From a virus: a DNA stretch of 31,955 bases. A program made the position numbers and the translations under genes. Shown here one piece after another: positions 15,493-26,038 of the stretch. The first letter of the stretch is position 1, and every line of letters begins with the position of its first letter. The DNA lies in the IMG/VR virus record IMGVR_UViG_3300007735_000612, positions 1 to 31,955 of that record; one strand, written 5' to 3'. The notes beneath the pieces were generated by a model. The model was not told the origin of the DNA and did no database searches. It was given only the letters and a program-made list of their open reading frames with translations.

Positions 15493-18135
15493 ATGGCATT
15501 CAAATACGAAGTTGACGGCAAAACATTTAGAAGTGAAGTTGAGTTAACTCCTCAAGAAATTGAGGAATTGACTGCTTCCTTGGGTGCATCTCCTAAAAAA
15601 GAAGCTGGTTTCCTTGAGGCTATTCAGCGTGGATTGACATCGGCTGCATCTTTAATTTCTGCTGGGTCTGCTCAACAGACAGGAACATTTGGAGGTGCTT
15701 TTCCTGCACAGCCAGAAATGGAGCCAATAACACGGCAATCAATTCAGGCTGGAATGGGCGTTGATACAACAGCACCTTACCCTAAAGGATTTCGTGGCGC
15801 TGTGTTGTCTGGTGTTGAAGCTGCCGCATCTCCTGAGTCTTATTTGTTCCCTCCTCTAGCTGCGGTAAAACGCGCTCCTGTATTGGCGCAAACACTTTTA
15901 CGACCAGCGGAACAAGCTGTTGTTGGTACTGGCGCTGAAGGTGGAGGTCAAATAGGAGAGTATGCCGGTCAAAAATTTGATATGCCAATTTTAGGAAGAT
16001 TTATTGGCAGTCTTTTTGGTGGCGGTGGAACCTCATATGCTGCTGGGACAGCACTAAAAACAGCAGAATTTGGAATTGAAGTTGGCGGTAAAGCATGGAA
16101 CTTATCAAAATCTCAATGGGAAAAGGTCAAAGGAACAGTCCCAGAAGATGAGCTAATGAAAGATGTGGATAACCGCATAAGCAACATCTTTATTGCTGCT
16201 GGTGCTGCCGACCCCGATTACATGAAGAAGATTGTTGAGGCTGCTAGAGCGCAACAGAGCGTTTATCTGAAGGCTCCTGGCGGGACAGAAATGAAGATGC
16301 CTATAAGCTCCATGCTTGCTGACAATCCTGTTATCAACAACATCATTCAGTCGCTATCTTCCAAAGACCCAGTGTTTCGGGCGCAGTATGGCAAGCAGTT
16401 TGAAGATGCAAAACTTGCTTTGGCGCAAAACCAAAAACGCATCTTTGGCGACCCATCAAAAATTACAGCGGAAGTATCAGCAAAAGGTAAGTTGATTGAG
16501 CCTTTGGATTTGTCAAAACCGCAGCAAAGAAAAATTCGTTCAATTGACCAACAAATTGCAGACCTATCTGAAGACAGAACCCTTGACCCTACTGTGCTTG
16601 GGCAACGCATTTCTGCGCTGGTTGCACAAAAAGAAGATGATGCAAGAAAAGCGGTTGCTCCTCTGTACACAGAGGCTTTCAACATAGCAAAAAACAAAAG
16701 TCTAGAGTTGCCAGCAGCATCTGTAGATGATATTTATAACTTTGTGGCAGGAAGCCAAGCGTCTGATATTTTTAAGACTTTTCCGTCTATCTACAACCGT
16801 GTGCGCGTTAAGTTTAAGCCTGAAATAGTAGAGCCAAGCGCAATCTTGACTGCCGAAGGAAAGCCAGCAATTGAGGGAGGCAGGAAGTTTACTGCTGCTA
16901 CCATTGAAGACCTTGATTCTTTGAAAAGAGAAATCAACAAACAGCTTCGCAAAACAGATGACCCAGCAGACATTCGTCTTTTGACTGAGTTAAAACAGCG
17001 TGTTGGTGGACACATTGAAGGACTTGACCCAGATTTTGTAGCCGCATATCGCAATGCAGACAATGCGTATCTACAAAAAGTTGGCTTACCTTTTAATGCT
17101 GAAACTTTAAAAAGTGTTGACCGTAAGAAATTTGTTGAGCAAATTAGCCCCGCCATTATTGGCAACAAATCAAACGCAAGCGAATTTATCGCTGCTACTG
17201 GCCCAGATGGTCTGCAAATTGTTAAGGATGCGTTCTACGATAGCTTTAGCAAGGTGGCAATCAAGAATGATGCTATTGACCCAAAGGCAGCAAGAGCTTG
17301 GCTAAAAAAGAACAAAGGCGCTATCTCTATAGTCCCAGGTCTTGAGGATGAGTTAACCGCATCTGTGTCCAACATTGATGATTTGATTAGGCAAAAAAAC
17401 AGAGTCAATGCGGCATTTGAGAAAGTTGCTGGTGAACAAATCCTTGGCAAAGAAGGCATGGAAAGCCCTCAAAGGCTCATCTCCAAGATGTACAGCGACA
17501 TTGGATTCACCAACAAATTCATGTCGCAATATGGCGCTAACAAAGACGCTGTGAATGCTGCCCGTGCATTTTTGCTAGATGACATTGTTAACTCAGCAGA
17601 CCCAGTTGCTTTACTCAATGACAGGAACAAAGCCGCTGTTTTCAATCGTGTGTTTGGCCCTACTTACGCACAGAAAATCAAAGACTTTGGCATTGCGTCA
17701 GACCGATTGACAAAAGATTTGACCAATGTTCCTTTCAGGGTTGAGACTGTTCCGAAGACAAGAGTTGAAGAACTTACTGGAATTGCTCCAGAGCAAATCA
17801 TTTCTCGTATATACAATCCTGTGTCTGGGCCAATTTATGCCATCACATCTTTGTTTAGCAAGTATTGGGCAAAAACAGCATCTGGCGCAACAGAAGAAAA
17901 GCTAAAAGCATTGCTTCTGAACCCGTCTGACGCTGTGAAAGTTTTTGAATCTGTGCAGCCTAAAGTCAGTGGTTTTGATAAAACAAAAATTGATGATGCC
18001 ATTAGGATTGGTAAAAAATATGGCATCCAATGGGTGGCAGATGCTGTGAATGATTTGCAAACTGGTGCAGCAAGAGGTGTTTATCAAGGTGTAACTGCTC
18101 CTGCTCCTATTCCACAAGAAGTTGAGCAGCAGTAA
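15493..18135 (+). CDS. Putative ejection / internal virion protein 3 (large)
   Basis: This 880-residue protein is the largest gene product. It begins MAFKYEVDGKTFRSEVELTP, a short beta domain, then a Gly-rich hydrophobic region (residues about 100-190: SYLFPPLAAVKRAP, GRFIGSLFGGGGTSYAAG) that could insert in a membrane, then long helices to the end. This is the plan of large internal virion proteins of short-tailed phages. I see no clear lysozyme or transglycosylase motif. GAGGAATAGC precedes the ATG, and the stop overlaps the next start (TAATG). Confidence 0.68.
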   Translation: MAFKYEVDGKTFRSEVELTPQEIEELTASLGASPKKEAGFLEAIQRGLTSAASLISAGSAQQTGTFGGAFPAQPEMEPITRQSIQAGMGVDTTAPYPKGFRGAVLSGVEAAASPESYLFPPLAAVKRAPVLAQTLLRPAEQAVVGTGAEGGGQIGEYAGQKFDMPILGRFIGSLFGGGGTSYAAGTALKTAEFGIEVGGKAWNLSKSQWEKVKGTVPEDELMKDVDNRISNIFIAAGAADPDYMKKIVEAARAQQSVYLKAPGGTEMKMPISSMLADNPVINNIIQSLSSKDPVFRAQYGKQFEDAKLALAQNQKRIFGDPSKITAEVSAKGKLIEPLDLSKPQQRKIRSIDQQIADLSEDRTLDPTVLGQRISALVAQKEDDARKAVAPLYTEAFNIAKNKSLELPAASVDDIYNFVAGSQASDIFKTFPSIYNRVRVKFKPEIVEPSAILTAEGKPAIEGGRKFTAATIEDLDSLKREINKQLRKTDDPADIRLLTELKQRVGGHIEGLDPDFVAAYRNADNAYLQKVGLPFNAETLKSVDRKKFVEQISPAIIGNKSNASEFIAATGPDGLQIVKDAFYDSFSKVAIKNDAIDPKAARAWLKKNKGAISIVPGLEDELTASVSNIDDLIRQKNRVNAAFEKVAGEQILGKEGMESPQRLISKMYSDIGFTNKFMSQYGANKDAVNAARAFLLDDIVNSADPVALLNDRNKAAVFNRVFGPTYAQKIKDFGIASDRLTKDLTNVPFRVETVPKTRVEELTGIAPEQIISRIYNPVSGPIYAITSLFSKYWAKTASGATEEKLKALLLNPSDAVKVFESVQPKVSGFDKTKIDDAIRIGKKYGIQWVADAVNDLQTGAARGVYQGVTAPAPIPQEVEQQ

Positions 18136-18305
18136 TGTTTAATGCATTTTTAGCCTCTGCCGAAAGTCCTTGGCCTGGGACAGAGACTAAAACAGTGCTG
18201 GTTTGTCGTACTCCAAAGAAAGATGAGGACAAGATGCTTAGAGCAAATGAGTTTCTTGACAAAGATGGACGCATCTGCCGATGGGCAGTGGTGAATAAGA
18301 AATGA
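18135..18305 (+). CDS. Small protein upstream of lysis genes
   Basis: This 56-residue protein begins MFNAFLASAESPWPGTETKT and carries a VLVCRTPKKDEDKMLRANEF segment, ending CRWAVVNKK. It is bracketed by a TAATG overlap upstream and an ATGA overlap downstream, which supports that it is translated. No family recognised. It lies where lysis-region accessory proteins usually start. Confidence 0.55.
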   Translation: MFNAFLASAESPWPGTETKTVLVCRTPKKDEDKMLRANEFLDKDGRICRWAVVNKK

Positions 18306-18792
18306 TAGACCCATTCACGGCTTTCGCTATGGCACAAGCTGCCGTTTCTGGCATAAAAAAGCAGTTGCTCTTGGCAAAGACATCCACGGCCTCTATAAAG
18401 AATTCAGCAGTTTTTACCAAGCAGCGGATACAGTTCACCTAGCAAGCAGCAAGGCGCGGATTGCAAGCATAGGTAAAACAGATGCACAGATAAGCTCTCA
18501 GGCTCTCCAGATTGCACTTGCATCTAAGGCACTAAGAGAACATGAGAAAGAATTGAAGGATATTCTTTTCTACTCAGGCAATGCGCCAGTGTGGGAGGAA
18601 ATGATGGCAGAACGTACTAGGATGATTAAAGAGCGCAATACGATTGAAAGAGAAGAGTCAGAAAGAAAGCAGAAGGACAAGGAAGTGAAAGTAGCGATTA
18701 TCATGAACACACTCTGGATTTCAGGTGCGTCAGCTATCGTTGTTCCACTGGTTAGCATTACATTTCACATTATCACAAATAGGGGTTTTTGA
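18302..18792 (+). CDS. Membrane-anchored lysis-region protein, joined by a -1 frameshift
   Basis: Frame 0 from ATG 18302 gives 46 residues and stops at 18442. A second frame is open without its own start through to the stop at 18790-18792. Joining them by a -1 shift at A AAA AAG (18355-18361) gives a 163-residue protein whose junction, GIKK then AVALGKDIHGLYKEFSSF, continues one amphipathic helix. The opening MIDPFTAFAMAQAAVSGIKK plus AVALGKD and a C-terminal membrane helix (IIMNTLWISGASAIVVPLV) match a protein type seen in aquatic phages as one uninterrupted frame. Either ribosomes shift here or one A is missing from the assembly. It may act with the adjacent holin, as an anchored spanin-like or pinholin-like factor; the function is not known. 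Confidence 0.66.
18355..18361 (+). promoter_or_regulatory. Candidate -1 ribosomal frameshift site A AAA AAG
   Basis: The heptamer lies exactly in the X XXY YYZ phase of the upstream frame (ATA AAA AAG). It is the most efficient type of -1 slippery site in bacteria. The weak downstream pairings TTGC/GCAA and TCTT/AAGA could form a small hairpin 3-5 bases away, but no strong stimulator is visible. Confidence 0.5.
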
Positions 18793-19304
18793 TGATTCCA
18801 ATTCTTGGCGCATTGTTGGGTACGCTTGCTGAAAGCGGTCTTGGTCTTCTATCTTCTGCTATTCAGGCAAAAGGCAAGGAAGTTGTGGAGAACACATTGG
18901 GAGTCAAGATTCCCGATAATCCCACTCCTGCCGATGTTGAAAAACTGCGAGAGTTGCAGTACCGCCATGAAGAGCGCCTGATTGAACTTGGTATTGAAAA
19001 AGCCAAGATGGAATTGGCTGAGATGGAGATGTTTGCTAGGGCCGCTCAGTCTGATGCAGAGAACATCACAGACCGTTGGCAAGCGGATATGAACTCTGAC
19101 TCTTGGCTATCCAAGAACATACGCCCCATGAGCCTTATAGCCATCTTTATGGGGTACTTCCTATTTGCCATGATGTCTGCATATGGCCTCAATGCCAATG
19201 AGTCCTATGTGACCCTGCTTGGTAACTGGGGAATGCTCATCATGGGTGCATATTTTGGTGGGCGTACTGTGGAGAAGCTGGCAGAAATGCGGAGCAACAA
19301 GTGA
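18792..19304 (+). CDS. Holin, three transmembrane segments (GTA_holin_3TM type)
   Basis: This 170-residue protein has an N-terminal hydrophobic stretch (MIPILGALLGTLAESGLGLL), a charged helical middle (PADVEKLRELQYRHEERLIE...) and two C-terminal membrane helices separated by a short loop (MSLIAIFMGYFLFAMM and YVTLLGNWGMLIMGAYFGG). The order, length and the SWLSKNIRPMSLIAIF motif match the 3-TM holin superfamily. It would form membrane lesions that release the endolysin. ATG 18792 overlaps the preceding stop (TGATG); a TTG at 18789 is less likely. Confidence 0.83.
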   Translation: MIPILGALLGTLAESGLGLLSSAIQAKGKEVVENTLGVKIPDNPTPADVEKLRELQYRHEERLIELGIEKAKMELAEMEMFARAAQSDAENITDRWQADMNSDSWLSKNIRPMSLIAIFMGYFLFAMMSAYGLNANESYVTLLGNWGMLIMGAYFGGRTVEKLAEMRSNK

Positions 19305-19501
19305 ACATTTTCATCCCCGTTTTGTACATCTGCATGAACGGTCATTGTGAATTTTTTCAACAGCTTGCCCACTACACTGATAGGCAACAATGCATGGCAG
19401 TTGTGATGGCAAAGAAAGAGGAATTTATCAAGATGGGCGCAACGGTAGACGCAACTTGCATTGATTTAATTGTTCAAAAAAGGGGTTTTTATGAGTCTTA
19501 G
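19301..19501 (+). CDS. Small cysteine-containing protein of the lysis cassette
   Basis: This 66-residue protein starts at GTG 19301, overlapping the holin stop (GTGA). The first 11 residues are hydrophobic (MNIFIPVLYIC) followed by CMNG, and three more Cys-containing segments include ATCIDLIV. It may be an exported protein with disulfides. Similar ORFs sit between holin and endolysin in related phages; a spanin-like or inhibitor role is possible. It overlaps the endolysin gene by 11 bases. Confidence 0.58.
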   Translation: MNIFIPVLYICMNGHCEFFQQLAHYTDRQQCMAVVMAKKEEFIKMGATVDATCIDLIVQKRGFYES

Positions 19502-19829
19502 TCAAGAACAAGCTGCATTTCTTTTGGATATGTGCAAGCTAATTCAGTATGCCACTGAACAGGGTTTTATGGTCACTGGAGGCGAGTTAGCGCGTACACC
19601 TGAGCAGCAGGCTATCTACGTGAAAACAGGTCGCAGCAAGACCATGAATAGCATTCACTTGAAACGCTGTGCAATGGACTTAAACTTCTTCCGTGATGGA
19701 AAAATCATTTGGGACAAGGTTATTCTGGCTCCAGTTGGCGCGTACTGGGAAACCCTACATCCTAAAAATCGGTGGGGAGGAAACTTCAAGTCTCTGCTTG
19801 ATTGTCCCCACTTTGAGCGAAATGTTTGA
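19491..19829 (+). CDS. Endolysin, peptidase M15 family
   Basis: This 112-residue enzyme is expected to cut the peptide cross-bridges of host peptidoglycan. The M15 zinc site is visible: SIHLKRCAMDL (His56, Asp63 in the SxHxxxxAxD pattern) and CPHFE (His107). The NRWGGNFKSLLDCPHFE ending is typical of VanY/L-alanyl-D-glutamate peptidase-type endolysins. There is no signal peptide, so it depends on the holin. ATG 19491 follows AGGGG with good spacing; an in-frame TTG at 19470 lies in the preceding gene. It is the last gene of the late module, and its stop lies only 4 bases from the stop of the opposing leftward gene. Confidence 0.88.
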   Translation: MSLSQEQAAFLLDMCKLIQYATEQGFMVTGGELARTPEQQAIYVKTGRSKTMNSIHLKRCAMDLNFFRDGKIIWDKVILAPVGAYWETLHPKNRWGGNFKSLLDCPHFERNV

Positions 19830-24916: not shown

Positions 24917-25244
24917 TTCAGGCTTTGATTACGTTTTTGCCCGACTGAACGCAATCTATGGCGCGACATTTCTCCGACATTGGGACGGAATAGACCCTGA
25001 GATGATTCGGCAGGAATGGATAAATCAGCTTGGCATCTATCTGACCTACCGACCACGCATGGACTATGCCATCAATTGTTGCGACCCTAATTTCCCGCCC
25101 AGTGCGTTGAAGTTTAAGGAATTGTGCGGCAATGGCCCATCAATCCCTCACCCGACAGCCATTGAAAACAAGCCAGCAACCAAGCCGATGCCGCCAGAGA
25201 TACGGGAGCAATTGGCTGCACTCAGAAAGAAAATGACAACATGA
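24894..25244 (+). CDS. Conserved partner of the DUF1376 protein
   Basis: This 116-residue protein contains FARLNAIYGATFLRHWDGID, GIYLTYRPRMDYAINC and a basic Pro-rich end (KPMPPEIREQLAALRKKM). The same arrangement directly after a DUF1376 gene is common in Burkholderiales phages. It overlaps that gene by 23 bases with a strong GGAGG site inside it. It may be a helicase loader or adaptor; that is a guess from linkage. Confidence 0.65.
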   Translation: MTDFCSPDSGFDYVFARLNAIYGATFLRHWDGIDPEMIRQEWINQLGIYLTYRPRMDYAINCCDPNFPPSALKFKELCGNGPSIPHPTAIENKPATKPMPPEIREQLAALRKKMTT

Positions 25245-26038
25245 GCGACCCATTCAAAATCACAGAACCAACCGTTATTTCATTTTCCGGTGGGCGAACA
25301 AGCGCTTATATGCTGTGGCGCGTACTGCAAAGCAATGGCGGGTTGCCACCAGAAGCTGTTGTCTGTTTTGCCAATACTGGCAAAGAGGATGAAGTGACAC
25401 TACGGTTTGTCCAGGATTGCAGCGACCAATGGAATGTGCCAATCACTTGGCTGGAGTTTAGGAAAGATGGATACGCTGTGGTGGATTACAAAACTGCCAG
25501 CAGGAATGGGGAGCCTTTTGAGGAACTGATAGAAAAAAAGAGCTATCTGCCAAATACGTTTGCCAGGTTTTGCACTTCAGAGCTAAAAATTGTCCCAATG
25601 AAAAAATACCTCAAGTCTTTGGGACATGAGGACATTGTGACTTTTGTAGGTATACGCGCAGATGAACCTAGGCGCGTTGCCAAGATGAAAACCAATGAGG
25701 ACATCAAGGAAACTCCATTGGCAACAGCAAACGTGACCGTTATAGAAGTTTTATCTTTTTGGGATAAGCAGCCATTTAACCTACAAACCATCACAGTCAA
25801 CGGGAATTCACTGTTAAGCAATTGTGATTTATGTTTTCTCAAGAAAGCAGACCATTTGCTAGGTCTTATCCAAGACAAGCCAGAACGCGCTGTCTGGTGG
25901 GCAAATATGGAAAATAAACTAGGCGCAAGATTTAATCAGGCGCACCCAAGTTATGTAGATATGTTGACCTACAACGAAAAACAACGCGATATGTTCGACC
26001 CTAACGAAGAAAGCATTTCTTGCTTTTGTGGGGATTGA
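25241..26038 (+). CDS. PAPS-reductase-like PP-loop protein
   Basis: This 265-residue protein carries the PP-loop ATP-pyrophosphatase motif SGGRTS (residues 16-21) in a phage-typical FSGGRTSAYMLW context, then CFANTGKEDEVTL, RFCTSELKIVPMKKYL and a FVGIRADEPRRVAKM segment. Two cysteine clusters in the C-terminal part (NCDLC and SCFCG) could ligate an iron-sulfur cluster or zinc. Family members reduce phosphoadenylyl sulfate or transfer sulfur to nucleic acids. In phages the substrate is mostly unknown; here it is followed by two nuclease-fold genes. ATGA overlap with the upstream gene. Confidence 0.77.
   Translation: MSDPFKITEPTVISFSGGRTSAYMLWRVLQSNGGLPPEAVVCFANTGKEDEVTLRFVQDCSDQWNVPITWLEFRKDGYAVVDYKTASRNGEPFEELIEKKSYLPNTFARFCTSELKIVPMKKYLKSLGHEDIVTFVGIRADEPRRVAKMKTNEDIKETPLATANVTVIEVLSFWDKQPFNLQTITVNGNSLLSNCDLCFLKKADHLLGLIQDKPERAVWWANMENKLGARFNQAHPSYVDMLTYNEKQRDMFDPNEESISCFCGD

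Follow-up and report, generated by a model that had tools for sequence, protein, structure and literature searches.

Most known phage frameshifts lie in tail-chaperone or capsid genes. In prfB, the gene of release factor 2, a +1 shift follows a short leader peptide, and the full protein is made only after the shift. Among the genes of tailed phages, the tail assembly chaperone G/GT has a conserved programmed frameshift that gives two products (PMC5009743). The signals of E. coli dnaX and of the IS3/IS911 type have the same A_AAA_AAG heptamer as the locus described here, a spacer of 5–8 nt and a downstream stem (PMC4066793). This heptamer is among the three most efficient motifs in E. coli, a ranking that may not be that of the host of the present phage, and stimulators generally begin 5–8 nt downstream of the slippery site (PMC4066793).

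The split gene and its slippery heptamer

The window, that is, the whole stretch of DNA analysed, comprises the 31,955 bases of a linear virus contig from IMG/VR. The features around the split gene are collected in Table 1; the gene order is a 56-aa ORF, for which family searches gave no match, the candidate frameshift gene with its shift at codon 20, a holin and an M15 endolysin. An earlier note on this DNA had described a 46-codon frame and a startless 3′ frame that join only by a −1 shift, and the coordinates agree: the frame that starts at ATG 18302 is closed by its TAG, and the −1 frame is open through the heptamer to the stop TGA 18790–18792, its earliest ATG, GTG or TTG past the heptamer being TTG 18553, 64 codons downstream. 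A −1 slip joins the two into a 163-aa protein that matches phrog_32327 over residues 1–139 (E 1.9e-12), across the junction and over most of its length. The location beside the holin also stands, since the gene is directly upstream of it and the −1-frame stop overlaps the holin start. Elsewhere in the window, positions 1720–2493 encode a protein with a collagen-like Gly-X-Y stretch (GRDGEPGRDGKDGQDGR...), and the ORF at 25241–26038 resembles, by eye only, a PAPS-reductase-type protein with the motif SFSGGRTSAYM.

Table 1. Features at and around the candidate frameshift site (positions in the window)
Feature	Position	Strand	Evidence or remark
Upstream 56-aa ORF	18135..18305	+	stop overlaps the ATG of the candidate frameshift gene as ATGA
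0-frame ORF, 46 aa	18302..18442	+	first 20 codons common to the frameshift product
Slippery heptamer A_AAA_AAG, phased on ATA AAA AAG	18355..18361	+	identical in 107/107 distinct relatives listed
−1-frame coding part of the 163-aa transframe protein	18361..18792	+	purifying selection in the −1 frame
Spacer, 5 nt, heptamer to stem-loop	18362..18366	+	
5′ arm of predicted stimulatory stem-loop	18367..18381	+	pairing, RNAalifold, covariation
3′ arm of predicted stimulatory stem-loop	18410..18425	+	18422 unpaired; covarying pair 18369/18423
0-frame TAG stop	18440..18442	+	kept in 94/94 relatives despite Leu/Val/Ile changes of the overlapping −1-frame codon 47
Holin Shine-Dalgarno-like AGGGG	18781..18785	+	within the end of the −1 frame
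Holin	18792..19304	+	phrog_3427; weak GTA_holin_3TM; ATG overlaps the −1-frame stop, TGATG 18790–18794
Endolysin, Peptidase_M15_4	19491..19829	+	family match

Codons 18 to 20 read ATA AAA AAG (18353–18361) with an A run of exactly six (18355–18360), and the frame junction carries the phased slippery heptamer that the X_XXZ_ZZN class of −1 frameshifts requires. Since AAAAAAG turns up 16 times on the window's + strand, the motif is weak evidence by itself, and conservation decides. When relatives were searched for with the joined protein, the split together with ATAAAAAAGC was kept in 79 of the 80 closest IMG/VR relatives (the best 80 of 465 candidates, from about 50 metagenome datasets by hand count), the exception being contig L002. 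A pattern search of the site that permitted ATA, ATC or ATT, AAA or AAG, and any third base in the preceding Gly codon gave at least 107 distinct site sequences; every one listed is ATA AAA AAG, and the Gly codon appears in all four forms. The pattern fixed the G of AAG, yet the −1-frame Ala codon needs that G anyway; the search was informative at the third bases of ATA and AAA, which it left free. In 94 distinct DNA copies, translation through the shift yields the same protein apart from a few substitutions, and the DNA differs mostly at third positions. The invariance of the heptamer and of its phase in these related sequences is far beyond what chance would produce, and the phased A AAA AAG described in the earlier note is thus a conserved element. 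An upstream Shine-Dalgarno stimulator is not conserved, SD-like motifs being found in 39 of 83 relatives.

Synonymous constraint and the downstream stem-loop

Third-position changes were counted at degenerate codons on a tree built with FastTree from 83 distinct complete genes. The mean is 11.5 changes per codon overall, and there are none at codons 18, 19 and 20; the heptamer codons are conserved beyond amino-acid constraint. The means by zone are 15.2 for codons 2–17, 6.3 for codons 21–42, 6.8 for codons 43–54 and 13.0 for codons 55–163. The reduction in codons 21–42 relative to codons 55–163 (Mann-Whitney P = 2e-6), which persists for codons 21–54 when only fourfold-degenerate residues are compared (P = 4e-4), shows that the zone after the heptamer is under extra constraint. 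On the same tree, both of the parts that the shift joins remain under purifying selection.

A stem of up to 15 pairs is predicted to begin 5 nt past the heptamer. Across 51 distinct rows, 96% of its cells are paired, against 33–57% when the 3′ arm is slid, and RNAalifold independently recovers most of it. The pair formed by the third bases of codons 23 and 41 (18369/18423) is U-A in 26 rows and C-G in 25, never mixed; its five double changes fall on five branches of the tree and rank first among 9,870 third-position pairs. This is the only stem pair that varies on both sides, and recombination of a block could mimic its covariation; however, the intervening third positions (codons 27, 31, 32 and 39) changed 10–15 times each, unlinked to the pair. 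Folding energy was unremarkable against synonymous-codon shuffles (z of +0.2 for the window, −2.0 to +0.9 for relatives), and the 5′ arm differs in five divergent copies, only one of which folds in the same place. The predicted stem would supply a stimulatory structure at the usual distance, though its folding energy alone is ordinary; a stem-loop after the heptamer is backed by the covarying pair and by the halving of synonymous change.

Is the 0-frame stop itself selected? Codon 47 of the −1 frame, which overlaps it, is NTA in 94 of 94 copies, encoding Leu, Val or Ile with seven changes of its first base; elsewhere in the gene A-ending codons for these residues amount to only 14–18%. This is suggestive of a selected stop but not proof, because third-position changes are likewise zero at three other degenerate codons (36, 118 and 155). 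The 0-frame product has 46 aa in 68 of the 94 distinct relatives and 21 aa in the other 26, where an earlier TAG precedes the later one, which is present there too. The 0-frame stop is thus kept whereas the short product varies in length, and a functional protein of 46 aa is unlikely to be what is conserved.

Alternative readings and the origin of the split

The split arose within the phage group of the window, as indicated by relatives at 61–66% identity that are continuous. These homologues, several of them on contigs of more than 100 kb, were found with DNA patterns describing the continuous form, and they read ATH AAR AAR GCN or similar at the site; more distant homologues in the cultured phages HMO-2011, CRP-345 and Limnohabitans DC31 are continuous as well. 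Most simply, the split would have originated when the A run changed by one base. No relatives were found in bacterial genome contigs, and searches with the capsid and terminase gave distant phages only. On contig L094 (positions 1561–2819), two family members of 162 and 256 aa lie in tandem with a one-base overlap.

The continuous relatives are also what a lost base would predict, whether by sequencing or assembly error or by a recent inactivating deletion in the A run. The same run of six in at least 107 distinct sequences from about 50 datasets, however, rules this explanation out for practical purposes, and purifying selection persists on either side of the junction. The addition of one A by a slipping RNA polymerase would restore the frame and yield the same protein, and here the argument turns on the form of the signal: no copy departs from exactly six A or has a longer run, the run falls on the phased heptamer and is followed by a conserved stem at ribosomal spacing, and efficient transcriptional slippage is not known for A runs this short. 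We therefore regard transcriptional slippage as very improbable. A 0-frame mini-protein followed by a separate 3′ gene would find a start in TTG 18553, which could open a 79-aa ORF. Yet −1-frame codons 21–84, which precede this TTG, show the same degree of conservation as the remaining codons and match the continuous homologues, and the TTG itself (codon 85) changes 15 times at its first position and 7 times at its third on the tree; two genes are accordingly rejected.

The mechanism at this locus is very probably programmed −1 ribosomal frameshifting of the type known from dnaX and IS3, and its position so near the start of the gene resembles that in prfB. The frame is split at an invariant heptamer, both joined frames are under coding constraint, and synonymous change is reduced over a stem with a covarying pair. 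From these sequence features we infer that the slippage is ribosomal, and its efficiency would likewise have to be deduced. The programmed shift put forward in the earlier note is well supported by the conserved heptamer, by selection on both parts and by the 18369/18423 pair, and the alignment of homologues suggested there gave a kept slippery site in all but one of the closest 80 relatives, and continuous frames in relatives at 61–66% identity. We propose that translation would begin at ATG 18302 and proceed as far as codon 20, where, with lysyl-tRNAs on AAA and AAG, a fraction of the ribosomes would slip back one base on A_AAA_AAG, helped by the stem-loop 5 nt downstream. Those that shift would make the 163-aa protein, with an N-terminal helix, further helices and a coiled coil, and a C-terminal membrane segment, and perhaps would also feed the overlapping holin start; for those that do not, translation would end after 46 codons, or after 21 in some relatives, with a short peptide as the product.

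Two contigs inside the group of the window depart from this arrangement. L002 (2988-3477) and L256 (210-699), from different datasets, have ATC AAA AAG GCC in one frame, and an extra T near the start makes ATG ATT GAT CCT TTT CGT enter a 42-aa dead end. Two routes would lead out of it: a +1 shift at TTT_CGT, with MIDPF-VAFALAQ as the resulting sequence, which matches relatives, or a TTG start; a pattern search for this arrangement found only these two contigs. The +1 site of influenza PA-X, UCC_UUU_CGU, is similar in that CCT_TTT_CGT is likewise phased with the frame opening in the +1 direction; the present case differs in consisting of two contigs known from sequence, in having the TTG start as an alternative and in being absent from the window. 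CGU is not rare in E. coli (PMC3498833).

The product, the holin and known systems

The product is predicted to be an all-helical protein with a C-terminal membrane segment. An AlphaFold model of the continuous homologue L088 (mean pLDDT 77.9) is entirely helical, with helices at 4–24, 28–58, 63–91 and 95–161, and a hydrophobic C-terminal segment follows a charged stretch. Structure searches with this model, like the profile searches, gave uncharacterised phage proteins only, with nothing significant in the PDB, and no informative match to a known lysis protein, spanin or holin, was obtained in Pfam, NCBIfam, PHROGs, PDB or BFVD. Members of the family that occur in larger phages adjoin a DNA polymerase and a RecA/UvsX-like gene (named by eye from translations), away from lysis genes.

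A link between the frameshift gene and holin expression is possible, given the position of the gene and its overlap with the holin start. TRATG (TGATG or TAATG) joins the −1-frame stop to that start in most of 90 copies, with AGGGG upstream, and the overlap persists even if one type of holin, MIPIL... or MEWLK..., replaces the other. The earlier note saw a possible timing device in a short and a long product made in a fixed ratio; the variable length of the short product and the occurrence of the family away from lysis genes do not favour this idea. It is tempting to propose, as a role added to the frameshift, a lysis timer in which ribosomes that have shifted terminate at TRATG and then re-initiate at the holin, the efficiency of the shift setting the holin level. 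However, the holin has its own AGGGG site and the family occurs outside lysis cassettes in the larger phages, and we consider this role unlikely. Less likely again is an extension of it to L002 and L256, in which codon-20 shift efficiency would tune the downstream holin through the stop-start overlap and these contigs, as a sister lineage that lost the −1 site, would use +1 CCU_UUU_CGU in the same gene, so that selection would keep frameshift dependence itself. Our own reading of the programmed −1 frameshift is that it would keep the amount of membrane protein low and in a set proportion to initiation.

A literature search, with subscription journals largely outside its reach, gave no report of such a frameshift in a holin-adjacent membrane gene; a candidate frameshift in Pseudomonas phage Fc02, a suggestion only and with a different motif, was set aside. 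Here a well-conserved frameshift lies in a membrane-protein gene that neighbours the lysis cassette, and almost all of the protein is encoded past the shift. Since automatic annotation splits or misses the gene, its protein is easily overlooked in more than 100 viral contigs. It is also a clear case of a continuous gene that turned frameshift-dependent and stayed so, and the purpose of early shifts becomes a testable question.

The mechanism is a known one, in a new gene and at an unusual position. The hypothetical proteins of phrog_32327 and of the HMO-2011 type belong to the same family over most of their length, but those members are single-frame. In contrast to dnaX and IS911, this is a phage gene without a conserved upstream Shine-Dalgarno stimulator, and the shift occurs at codon 20 of 163. 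It differs from the tail chaperone G/GT in not being a tail gene, in shifting near the start rather than the end, and in that the 0-frame product is a stub of 21–46 aa. The likeness to prfB lies in the very early shift and in a full-length product that likewise requires it, although here the shift is −1 and not +1, there is no stop codon at the shift site and no autoregulation is known.
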